Assembly: GCA_945862025.1 (NCBI GenBank)
Contig: CAMAWU010000010.1
Span: 1 to 34,208 of the forward strand
Direction of reading: 5' to 3'
Origin: Ferrithrix thermotolerans DSM 19514
Lineage (GTDB): Bacteria > Actinomycetota > Acidimicrobiia > Acidimicrobiales > Ilumatobacteraceae
DNA: 34,208 bases
Part shown: piece after piece, positions 27,278 through 31,707 of the stretch
Position numbering within the stretch: the stretch's first letter is position 1
Layout of the letters: the number at the start of each line of letters is the position of its first letter
Notes under the pieces: model-generated
Seen by the model: the letters and a program-made list of their open reading frames with translations, nothing else
What the model was told of the DNA's origin: nothing
The model's database searches: none
Translations under genes and position numbers: made by a program

Positions 27278-28432
27278 CTAATTTTTAGTTGGATCACCAA
27301 ACGGCACCGGCGAAACTTCTGCACTGAACTCACCTGACGGTGTCTGCACCATAACTTTTGTGCCAATAGGCGTGTGTTCAATCGCCAATTGACCGAGCGC
27401 CACATTTGTTTTGAGTCGTGGTGACCAAACTGCCGAAGTCACCGAACCAATTTCTTTACCCGAAATTTTGACCGGCCACGGATTTCGATTCGCTGGCACT
27501 TTTGGCCCATCAATTTTCAAACCACAAACTCGACGATTGATGCCTCGTTTGGCCACCGCGCGAATTGCATCAAGACCAATCGCTTCAATGTCGGCGTCCA
27601 ACGAAACATATTGCTCCATTGCCGCTTCAAGAGGTGTGTCGGCACGAGTGATATCAGAACCGTAGGTCATCAATCCCGCTTCAATTCGCTCAATCAAATT
27701 CGGGCAACCTGGACCAATATCAAATTGTTTGCCAGCCGCTGCCAATGCATCGTAAAGTTGCACGCCAACTTCGGCATCATCCACATAAATCTCGAATCCG
27801 CCTTGCGCGCTCCAACCACTGCGCGCGACCAAAAATGGATGTCCCTGAAACTCAAGCGTGTTGAAACGAAAGAACTTTGTCTTGCGTGCGGCCTCACCAA
27901 ATACGGCGACAACAACTTCTTCGGCTTTCGGCCCTTGTACGGCGAGCGGCCAAATGTCTGGCTCAAAAATTTTGACATCTAGTTTCATGCCAAGAGCAAT
28001 ACCTTGTGCCCACAACAAAATATCGAGATCTGAAATTGAAAACCAGAAACGATCTTCGGCCACACGAATCGCCACTGGATCGTTCAAAAGAAAACCATCT
28101 TGGTCGCAAACTGGTGCAAGCGCACAGCGCCCAATATCTAGTTTGCGCAAATCGCGAACTGTCATCAACTGGGCAAGTCGTGCCGCATCGGGGCCGACTA
28201 ATTCAACTTGGCGCTGACAAGAAACATCCCACAGTTGAACATTGTTACGCAAGTGAAAATAGTCTTCTTCAACTCCACGAATGCGAGTTGGCAACAACAT
28301 GTGGTTATAGATCGTGTAAGCCTGCACGCCAAAGTCTTCAATACGATTTGAAAACGGTGTCGAGCGCGTGCGGCGAGTAATCGCCAACTGCGGCGCGTTC
28401 TTTGGCGCCTGAACCGTCGGTGTGTAGTTCAT
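27278..28432 (-). CDS. DmdA-like (GcvT superfamily) aminomethyltransferase; candidate DMSP demethylase
   Basis: TRRTRSTPFSNRIEDFGVQAYTIYNHMLLPT, WDVSCQRQVELVGPDAARLAQLMTVRDL, RSGWSAQGGFEIYV, GPGCPNLIERIEAGLMTYGSD; these resemble DmdA more than canonical GcvT. ORF track start 28462; ATG 28432 fits better just after the DUF1326 stop. Confidence 0.7.
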   Translation of the reverse strand: MNYTPTVQAPKNAPQLAITRRTRSTPFSNRIEDFGVQAYTIYNHMLLPTRIRGVEEDYFHLRNNVQLWDVSCQRQVELVGPDAARLAQLMTVRDLRKLDIGRCALAPVCDQDGFLLNDPVAIRVAEDRFWFSISDLDILLWAQGIALGMKLDVKIFEPDIWPLAVQGPKAEEVVVAVFGEAARKTKFFRFNTLEFQGHPFLVARSGWSAQGGFEIYVDDAEVGVQLYDALAAAGKQFDIGPGCPNLIERIEAGLMTYGSDITRADTPLEAAMEQYVSLDADIEAIGLDAIRAVAKRGINRRVCGLKIDGPKVPANRNPWPVKISGKEIGSVTSAVWSPRLKTNVALGQLAIEHTPIGTKVMVQTPSGEFSAEVSPVPFGDPTKN

Positions 28433-28434
28433 AT

Positions 28435-29070
28435 TTATGGGCCGACCCACTTGATTTGACAAATTTCAGCACTGCGACCTTCGAAGTTCCAAACATGACC
28501 AAACGCTCGCACCCGACCTTGCGACGCTTTGGCTACAACTACCTCTGAACCCATCCAATATTGAGTGTTAACAACGGTGACTTCTTCGCCGTCGCGCATA
28601 CCAGTGATCGGCTCAACCGAACCTTGAATGAATTTGCCGACCGAAAGCGTTCGCTTTTGACCCTCAGTGACAAAACTTATTGGTGCACGCTCGGCGCCAA
28701 GATATTTACCGACAAGCATCTTGAACAAACCCGTCGTACCACGACTCGCACCAGTGAATATCTTCTCGAGTTTCTCAAACTGTTCGTCGGTCGCACGATC
28801 GTCAATCCATAAACCGGTTGTCCAGTTGCCGCGCTCCATTTTGCCAGGGATGTCCAACAACATCGCCACATTTAAACCCGACAAAAATGTCAAACCAGAC
28901 TTGCCTTTATCAATTCGCACACCCAACCACGCCTGACAGTATCCCTCTGTTGGTGGATGCGCGCCGAGCGAAACAACACATGGGCAAAACACCGTGCAGT
29001 TGCAATTTAAAATTAATTCGCCCTCAATTGACCAAGTCTCTGCATTTTTTTGTTCTATTTTTGTGTTCAC
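28435..29070 (-). CDS. DUF1326-family protein
   Basis: LNCNCTVFCPCVVSLGAHPPTEGYCQAWLGVRIDKG. Confidence 0.85.
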   Translation of the reverse strand: MNTKIEQKNAETWSIEGELILNCNCTVFCPCVVSLGAHPPTEGYCQAWLGVRIDKGKSGLTFLSGLNVAMLLDIPGKMERGNWTTGLWIDDRATDEQFEKLEKIFTGASRGTTGLFKMLVGKYLGAERAPISFVTEGQKRTLSVGKFIQGSVEPITGMRDGEEVTVVNTQYWMGSEVVVAKASQGRVRAFGHVWNFEGRSAEICQIKWVGP

Positions 29071-29111
29071 AGTTTTTCTCTCTTTCGTTATTGTTAGATT
29101 TGGGTTTCAAC

Positions 29112-29867
29112 TTACGGATGAATATGACTCTGTGCGATATCGCCACCAGTAAACAGACTCGCCAATACTGCGACACCCCAAATAGTTATTAATACTCCAA
29201 GTGGCAAAGTAATTCGTCGGCCAATCACGGGAAACTTTTCAATCGCCATCACAGCAGCGCTAAGCACCATAAACCAAATGTTGCTTAATCCGCCGACAAA
29301 TGCCAGCAACATCAATGCCCAACAACAACCGACACATGTCATGCCGTGACGCAATCCCATTTTGAAACCACCAGCGACACCATCTCGCCAGTGGCGAAAG
29401 AAAAATTGCATCGGTGCAACGCACTCTGACTGACACCGCTGCTTAATTGATGAAAATTGATACAGACCAGCAGTGATCAGCAGTCCGCCACTGAGTGATT
29501 TGTTCAAACCGTTGTGCGCGTCAAACAAATTCAGTTCAGCAATCGCTAACTGCAATGACGAAGCCACCGAAGCAAAACTCAGCCAAACAATCAAATAAGC
29601 CAAAACGAAAGCCCACCAAACAGTTTGCGCATTTCGAGCGGCGCTACTTGTCGTAACACTATGCAACGACATCAACACGGGCACCGCGGTAGTTGACATC
29701 ATCACCAGCGTCATCAACATCCACATCAGAAAAACACTCGACGCGGTGTGCGCATGCACAGAACCGCTCGTAGTCACGTGCTGCTGCAACAGTCCATACC
29801 AGCCGACGGCAACGAACAACATAAACAGCGGCCACGGCGAATTTGTCAGCAATTTGCTCTGCATCAT
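29112..29867 (-). CDS. DUF2182-family predicted metal-binding integral membrane protein
   Basis: YQFSSIKQRCQSECVAPMQFFFRHWRDGVAGGFKMGLRHGMTCVGCCWALM. Confidence 0.87.
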   Translation of the reverse strand: MMQSKLLTNSPWPLFMLFVAVGWYGLLQQHVTTSGSVHAHTASSVFLMWMLMTLVMMSTTAVPVLMSLHSVTTSSAARNAQTVWWAFVLAYLIVWLSFASVASSLQLAIAELNLFDAHNGLNKSLSGGLLITAGLYQFSSIKQRCQSECVAPMQFFFRHWRDGVAGGFKMGLRHGMTCVGCCWALMLLAFVGGLSNIWFMVLSAAVMAIEKFPVIGRRITLPLGVLITIWGVAVLASLFTGGDIAQSHIHP

Positions 29868-29891
29868 TGCTGATTACTATAGTTATCACTT

Positions 29892-30674
29892 GTGGCAGTT
29901 AGCAAATCAAAACGGTCTGGAGAGTTGTTGCAGTTCAATGCGCAAGGGTTTGCCCAACTGCTGCATCGGCGGCGTCTACAACTTGGGCTCTCAACTCGCG
30001 AACTTGCCGCCCGAGCAAAAATCTCACAGCCTTATGTCGTGGCTCTTGAGCGCGCCCGCCAGGTTTCACCAGACGCCACACGCAACTTGCCGACCCCAAC
30101 AGTTGATGTGATTGCACAACTGGCCCACGCCTTAGACATTGAGCCCGTAAAACTTTTTCAACAAGCAATGCACTTGGCTTGTCGCCATGTGCTTTTAGTT
30201 GTCGACAACTCAAGTGCGACGCCACTGCAAATTGTTAAGCACGCCAATAGCAACCACACACACATCGACATTAAATTACGCAAGCGCAACTCGAGACACT
30301 ACAAACCATCCGACATTACTGACGCTCTCTATCGCCAACTACAAAACCTGCGAGACGAAATTTCAGGCAAAAGCCTCGGTTTAGTTTTCAGTGAGACTTC
30401 ATCGACGATGACCAAAGTTGACAATCCAGATGCAGTCATCGCATTTGAACATCAGTGGGCCGATATTGTGAATCGGGCAGCGACTTCGGCCGGCGCCCAT
30501 GCACTGTTCAATATCTGTGCATATAAAATTTCAGACTTGAAGTCGATGAAAAATCCAATCGCTACGGCGCGCGAACTTATCGAAGTACACGACGAAGTCT
30601 GGTCGTACCAAGATTCACGCCTAACAATCGGCACTGACAGCGAAAAACAAATCGTTCAGCAACTCACAAAATAA
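29892..30674 (+). CDS. XRE-family transcriptional regulator with uncharacterised C-terminal domain
   Basis: HTH: FAQLLHRRRLQLGLSTRELAARAKISQPYVVALERARQVSPDATRNLPTPTVDVIAQLAHALDI. Confidence 0.82.
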   Translation: MAVSKSKRSGELLQFNAQGFAQLLHRRRLQLGLSTRELAARAKISQPYVVALERARQVSPDATRNLPTPTVDVIAQLAHALDIEPVKLFQQAMHLACRHVLLVVDNSSATPLQIVKHANSNHTHIDIKLRKRNSRHYKPSDITDALYRQLQNLRDEISGKSLGLVFSETSSTMTKVDNPDAVIAFEHQWADIVNRAATSAGAHALFNICAYKISDLKSMKNPIATARELIEVHDEVWSYQDSRLTIGTDSEKQIVQQLTK

Positions 30675-30702
30675 ACAAATCACACGAAACGAGAACAACA
30701 AA

Positions 30703-31707
30703 ATGAACACACCAAATACATCACGAGCATTTACGGTTGGCAAAACCGAATCAGGCTGGGCGCGCAAAATCGTCGAAATGCCACTAGACAAACTCGGCGA
30801 CGGCGATGTGCTGATTCAAGTCGAATATTCGGGCATCAACTTCAAAGACGGACTCGCCAGCACCGAAGCAGGTCGCATCGCTCGCATTGATCCGCTTATC
30901 GGCGGCGTTGATCTCGCCGGCAAAGTCGTCGAATCGTTAAACCCAAATTTTAAAGTCGGCGACAATGTGATTGCGCACGGATACGACATCGGCGTTGCTC
31001 ATCACGGTGGCTTTTCGCAATATGCTCGCGTGCAATCGGCGTGGCTCGTGCCAATACCAAAAGGTCTTGACGCACGCACCGCGATGATGATCGGCACAGC
31101 CGGATACACCGCCGCACTTTCGGTTGACGCACTCGAAAAAGCGGGTCTCAAACCAAACACGGGCCCAATTCTCGTAACTGGCGCAACTGGCGGCGTCGGT
31201 TCAGTCGCCGTCGGCATGCTTGCGCTTCGCGGCTACGAAGTTGTCGCTAGCACTGGCAAACCAGAAACTGCCGAATGGCTTAAACAAATTGGCGCAAGCG
31301 AAATAATTGACCGCGCCGAGACTTCAGCCGAGTCGGCCAAACCACTTGAACGCGAGCGCTGGGCTGGTGCAGTCGACTGTGTCGGTGGCGCAACACTCGC
31401 CTACATTTTGCGTACTCTGCAATATGGATGCAGCGTCGCCGCGAGTGGACTTACTGGTGGCACAAGTTTGCCAACATCTGTTTTGCCATTCATATTGCGT
31501 GGCGTAAATTTGCTCGGCATAGACAGCGTGCAAACGCCGCTTGAGCCACGCAAGGCAATGTGGTCGCGAATCGCTACAGACTTGAAACCAACTTGGCTTG
31601 AAACGCAAAGCGTTGAGATCATTGGCCTCGACGATCTCAGTGAGCAACTTGACAAAATTCTCGCAGGCAAAATGCGCGGTCGCGTACTGGTTAATCCGCG
31701 TTTATAA
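30703..31707 (+). CDS. Zn-less MDR quinone-oxidoreductase-like protein, YhdH/AcuI type (acryloyl-CoA reductase family)
   Basis: VEYSGINFKDGLASTEAGRIARIDPLIGGVDLAGKVVES, GFSQYARV, GTAGYTAALSVDALEKAGL, VTGATGGVGSVAVGMLALRGYEVVASTGK. Confidence 0.82.
   Translation: MNTPNTSRAFTVGKTESGWARKIVEMPLDKLGDGDVLIQVEYSGINFKDGLASTEAGRIARIDPLIGGVDLAGKVVESLNPNFKVGDNVIAHGYDIGVAHHGGFSQYARVQSAWLVPIPKGLDARTAMMIGTAGYTAALSVDALEKAGLKPNTGPILVTGATGGVGSVAVGMLALRGYEVVASTGKPETAEWLKQIGASEIIDRAETSAESAKPLERERWAGAVDCVGGATLAYILRTLQYGCSVAASGLTGGTSLPTSVLPFILRGVNLLGIDSVQTPLEPRKAMWSRIATDLKPTWLETQSVEIIGLDDLSEQLDKILAGKMRGRVLVNPRL

Follow-up and report, generated by a model that had tools for sequence, protein, structure and literature searches.

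The 34,208-nt stretch analysed here (the window) comes from a metagenome-assembled genome (MAG) of the Ilumatobacteraceae, 1.73 Mb in size and 84% complete, of which it forms contig C10. It carries a five-gene cassette predicted to demethylate dimethylsulfoniopropionate (DMSP) and to protect against acrylate, arranged around a very short intergenic region:

27278..28462, minus strand: DmdA, DMSP-dependent demethylase (TTG start at 28462, or internal ATG start at 28432)
28435..29070, minus strand: DUF1326 protein of a cassette subclade, with an NCNCTVFCPC motif (PF07040, E 5e-51; DmdA-linked clade)
29112..29867, minus strand: DUF2182/PpoB2-type membrane protein of a cassette subclade (PF09948 'Copper chaperone', E 7e-54)
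29868..29891, both directions: predicted divergent promoter/operator of 24 bp, with the palindrome GATTACTATAGTTATC at 29872-29887
29892..30674, plus strand: XRE-family regulator (HTH_3; C-terminal domain without a family match)
30703..31707, plus strand: YhdH/AcuI-family acryloyl-CoA reductase (TIGR02823, 438 bits)

The five open reading frames (ORFs) lie where the first-pass annotation had placed them, and the intergenic region common to the two divergent units is, as it had proposed, real and exactly 24 bp long. Its span for DmdA, 27278-28432, corresponds to the internal ATG; the TTG start extends the ORF to 28462. It had also suspected an actinobacterial host, and the Ilumatobacteraceae lineage bears this out. 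The closest relatives of the window's DmdA (62-91% identity) are from MAGs of Actinomycetota, Acidimicrobiia and Ilumatobacteraceae, and the titles of several of these records indicate lakes or reservoirs (e.g., Baikal, Lanier). The marine, Roseobacter-type setting named in the first pass is the wrong one for this cassette. Public MAG records titled Bifidobacterium breve (L014) and Ferrithrix thermotolerans (L009) contain the cassette of the Ilumatobacteraceae lineage (DmdA 88-91% identity) and are probably mislabelled.

Acidimicrobiia loci L003-L016, L020, L021, L046 and L056 show this order again, with the DUF2182-DUF1326-DmdA unit divergent to XRE-AcuI. Flanking genes are common within the genus (aldolase, Gfo/Idh genes, Znu transporter), and other genera have other neighbours, such as trpD/thrB and queG in L012 or recA in L021. 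Because it recurs across this range of DmdA identity and on unrelated flanks, the arrangement is not due to chance. The cassette is a genuine unit, mobile with respect to the genes around it.

The same four enzyme and DUF families also occur together on one strand in alphaproteobacterial loci (L026-L045 and others), including those of Roseobacters, Roseibium and Neomegalonema. In the Roseobacter dmdA-acuI operon (Ruegeria pomeroyi SPO1913-SPO1914; PMC3338564) the order is DUF2182, DUF1326, DmdA, with AcuI adjacent. The window cassette shares this gene content and the DmdA-linked DUF subclades, but its AcuI does not follow DmdA collinearly; it lies behind the XRE gene on the opposite strand, across a predicted symmetric palindromic promoter. 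Plasmids pMaD9 of Marinovum algicola and pSMS3-2 of Antarctobacter also hold DUF2182-DUF1326-DmdA-AcuI collinearly, with DUF1326 proteins 61-63% identical to the window's. They differ in having a GntR regulator and a DmdA of the alphaproteobacterial clade, and pMaD9 has an acyl-CoA synthetase and an SBP56/MtoX gene in addition. Since the pMaD9 record labels both DUF genes '(transmembrane) protein involved in DMSP breakdown', annotators had already noticed the association of the DUFs with DMSP. The first-pass claim of a new locus design therefore stands for the arrangement and falls for the gene set. What is new is the Ilumatobacteraceae version, with the XRE gene and AcuI split off divergently and a palindromic gap between the units. 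We rejected transfer of the whole cassette from the Stappiaceae/plasmid type because DmdA rejects that grouping (approximately unbiased test, p 1e-8). Nesting of DUF1326 inside the Alphaproteobacteria was not significant (p 0.16), and these two results set neither a direction nor an age for the common gene set.

By homology, the protein encoded at 27278-28462 is a genuine DmdA, and demethylase activity would be expected of it. It scored 489 bits on the NCBIfam DMSP-demethylase equivalog NF009133 (cut-off 410), and the best GcvT model gave 164 bits, below its required 300. Among solved structures, Pelagibacter DmdA (3tfh) gave 351 bits and the highest-scoring GcvT 114. W197, Y206, D108 and E204 (3tfh numbering), which we take to be DmdA-type residues, are all retained, as are the further DmdA-type positions F178, Q200, N235 and E238. 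In the tree, the window protein falls in an Ilumatobacteraceae DmdA clade (support 100/100), far from the host's own GcvT and apart from DmdA-like paralogues; the alphaproteobacterial DmdA proteins form a separate clade (100/100). The backbone between DmdA clades is without resolution, including placement relative to the named clades A-E. The identification of the GcvT-like protein as DmdA and not GcvT, offered in the first pass with phylogeny and active-site residues as checks, thus survived both.

Many Acidimicrobiia also encode DmdA-like paralogues that score below the cut-off (284-393 bits) and depart from DmdA at several DmdA-type positions. Up to three are found per genome (G390, G452), with differing residues at those positions. 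In another Ilumatobacteraceae genus, such a gene (L140; G076:C168, about 258-1367) lies some 150 bp from, and divergent to, an SBP56/methanethiol-oxidase-type gene. In view of such paralogues, which have no assigned substrate, and of a DMSP supply in lakes that is undocumented here, one might propose that the window's GcvT-family enzyme acts on glycine betaine, dimethylsulfoxonium propionate or another sulfonium and that DMSP is not the main purpose of the cassette. We consider this quite unlikely: the protein passes the DMSP-demethylase equivalog cut-off, it keeps the DmdA-type residues where the sub-cut-off group carries Y178, R238 and E200, and AcuI lies next to it, which is also the case in Roseobacter DMSP operons.

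The reductase belongs to the YhdH/AcuI family, as first annotated: it exceeds the TIGR02823 YhdH/acrylyl-CoA reductase subfamily cut-off (438 against 297 bits) and falls short of the strict AcuI equivalog NF051456 (380 against 440 bits). It matches the solved YhdH/AcuI structure 5gxe at 307 bits. Membership in a quinone reductase group, the alternative raised in the first pass, is not supported, as the PIG3 model gave only 84 of the required 297 bits. A YhdH mutant regained its tolerance of acrylate when given cloned acuI genes of several bacteria, among them yhdH of E. coli itself, and AcuI proteins have no DMSP-specific clade (PMC3338564). For these reasons the equivalog miss weakens the name rather than the likely activity.

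The two DUF genes track DmdA. Among 201 Ilumatobacteraceae genomes, with DmdA presence called at E <= 1e-80, 37 have DmdA, 30 have DUF1326 and 24 have both, leaving 13 and 6 with one alone (Fisher p 2e-16, kinship ignored). Of 23 genomes in the window's genus, DmdA and DUF1326 occur together in 10 and are both missing from the other 13. A class-wide sample of 296 genomes contained a DUF1326 at least 80% identical to the window's in three genomes, all with an over-cut-off DmdA, and the 15 genomes with only a distant DUF1326 (<=38%) had no DmdA match. Across 72,556 plasmid records, DUF1326 proteins of >60% identity were found only in the two DMSP loci, the other matches listed being <40%. The DmdA-linked sequences form one tree group from both phyla for DUF1326 (SH-aLRT 99, 36 rows) and likewise for DUF2182 (99, 42 rows); two Neomegalonema/Rhodobacteraceae DUF2182 rows fall outside. 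Generic DUF1326-DUF2182 pairs consist of the same two families, also adjacent, but they lie outside the DmdA-linked clade, occur without DmdA and reach no more than about 38% identity. The Marinomonas copper chaperone PpoB2 can be placed beside these generic pairs. A literature search found no published role for the pair.

Five cysteines of DUF1326 are invariant (C23, C25, C29, C31 and C45, an NCxC...FCPC...C set), and DUF2182 conserves M52, M56, M57, C145, C149, C178, C181 and C182. Judging from these cysteine and methionine sets and the Pfam name, the pair most likely handles Cu(I). The best Protein Data Bank matches to the DUF1326 fold were acetoacetate-decarboxylase-like, with TM scores of only 0.41-0.44 and an rmsd of ~13 Å, and were not used. 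The pair might instead be a DMSP uptake or sensing system, a membrane permease with a cytosolic partner. In favour are the lack of any other transporter in the cassette, the membrane-protein family of DUF2182, and the placement of the DMSP-linked forms in clades of their own that accompany DmdA. We think this role unlikely, since the generic pair is widespread without genes for methylated substrates (Streptomyces, Sinorhizobium, Nocardioides), the conserved residues are Cys/Met clusters with no typical permease pattern, and 'Copper chaperone' is the Pfam name of the DUF2182 family.

In 13 loci of the genus, the gap contains an invariant 17-nt block, TGATAACTATAGTAATC, whereas identity averages 80% over 120 flanking columns, where no other invariant run exceeds 5. 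Within the genus the block is the invariant near-palindrome GATWACTATAGTWATC. L011-L013, L016 and L021 have the perfect palindrome GATCACTATAGTGATC, and the remaining XRE cassettes have variants with few changes. An exact match occurs once in the window's genome; at <=2 mismatches the palindrome is no commoner than its reversed control. In the 12 distinct genus sequences, TATAGT stands exactly 8 nt before the start codon on each strand (9 nt on each in L011-L013), and in the genus TTGC lies 18 nt upstream of each TATAGT. From standard promoter geometry, these features predict symmetric, bidirectional, near-leaderless promoters placed back-to-back under one operator. The XRE protein is the obvious candidate to bind that palindrome. 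Its AlphaFold2 model has a pLDDT of 85, and matches among solved structures were limited to the helix-turn-helix, with no informative match for the C-terminal domain. Acrylate co-induces dmdA-acuI in Ruegeria (PMC3338564) and is for that reason a candidate inducer for the XRE protein. Within the genus, XRE proteins are 54-60% identical versus 88-97% for DmdA and DUF1326; the regulator changes far more quickly than the cassette genes, despite the invariant operator. Between AcuI and DmdA of the cassette-less type there is a related palindrome, GATNACKATMGTNATC, though no XRE was found in G120 or G098. A search for XRE encoded in trans in cassette-less DmdA genomes found none.

Taken together, we consider it probable that the locus is an XRE-switched cassette for methyl harvest from DMSP and protection from acrylate, with a dedicated DUF pair. 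DmdA, so assigned by homology, would demethylate DMSP with tetrahydrofolate (THF) as methyl acceptor, giving 5-methyl-THF and methylmercaptopropionate (MMPA), and AcuI, placed by family, would reduce acryloyl-CoA. The cytosolic, Cys-rich DUF1326 and the membrane-bound, Met/Cys-rich DUF2182 would be the form of a widespread pair that is dedicated to DMSP. Most likely, they would handle Cu(I) either by supplying the pathway or by shielding copper sites from its thiols, the weakest step of the proposal. XRE would bind the 16-bp palindrome, recognised as an operator by its conservation, where it overlaps the back-to-back -10 boxes. There it may repress itself and AcuI together with the DUF2182-DUF1326-DmdA unit until released by a pathway metabolite.

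Several findings weigh against this interpretation. Conservation at the -35 positions counts for less, as these overlap with coding sequence; AcuI is below the strict equivalog cut-off; a different methyl-sulfonium, or a betaine, could be the substrate; and DmdA loci without the DUF pair and XRE exist (L100, L019). The cassette genomes also lack a PF12806-type acyl-CoA dehydrogenase (0 of 24, versus 73 of 177 other genomes of the family) and MtoX (SBP56/MtoX in 6 of 201 genomes, none with the cassette). These absences leave MMPA and methanethiol (MeSH) without an assigned fate and the DUF pair without an assigned copper client. We assume that PF12806 is a domain of DmdC; NCBIfam gave the PF12806-type proteins no DmdC name, and the dehydrogenase count is a hint only.

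MtoX is a copper enzyme, and on pMaD9 the SBP56 gene follows DUF2182-DUF1326-(acyl-CoA synthetase)-DmdA-AcuI, as would suit a DUF pair that serves as copper chaperone for a methanethiol oxidase removing MeSH. With SBP56 absent from every cassette genome, we ruled this model out for the Ilumatobacteraceae lineage, as judged by MAG content; it could still hold on pMaD9, and as a general account of the pair it is very improbable. The cassette may serve mainly to provide methyl groups for 5-methyl-THF. We suggest more tentatively, as a possibility that we would not yet favour, that it is a freshwater actinobacterial module for methyl groups only. It would work without the classical MMPA-CoA dehydrogenase or MeSH oxidase, the Cu(I) pair would be an unrecognised part in two phyla, and both arms would be driven from one mirror-symmetric leaderless promoter occupied by XRE as repressor.

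Demethylation of DMSP was assigned to marine Alphaproteobacteria in a review of 2017 (PMC5395565), and another review lists Roseobacters, SAR11, SAR116 and Gammaproteobacteria (PMC13360808). DMSP-utilisation genes were mentioned in 2021 for Acidimicrobiia of a stratified lake (PMC7887784). A DmdA cassette across a lake-associated actinobacterial family would place the key gene of DMSP demethylation in a different phylum and habitat. The DUF1326/DUF2182 pair accompanies DmdA in both phyla with no published role that we could find, and so marks a definite gap in a sulfur pathway that is otherwise well studied. The 24-bp symmetric promoter/operator gives a clear regulatory prediction. The DMSP-dedicated pair and the symmetric palindromic promoter are two openings for further work.

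Other DmdA loci vary in composition. Some in the Ilumatobacteraceae lack both DUFs and XRE (L018 9422-11448, L019 7890-9781, L100 1-1201) and have AcuI directly divergent from DmdA; the DUF pair is therefore not essential to DmdA. In these, DmdA is followed by an unassigned ORF of ~140 aa (143 aa in L018 and L100), behind which L018 and L100 have a multicopper oxidase gene. Among the one-strand loci, a divergent GntR gene adjoins DUF2182 in L029, L101 and L102. In two Rhodobacterales loci a DinB-family gene lies between DUF1326 and DmdA (L026 7448-7987 and L031 7532-8035).

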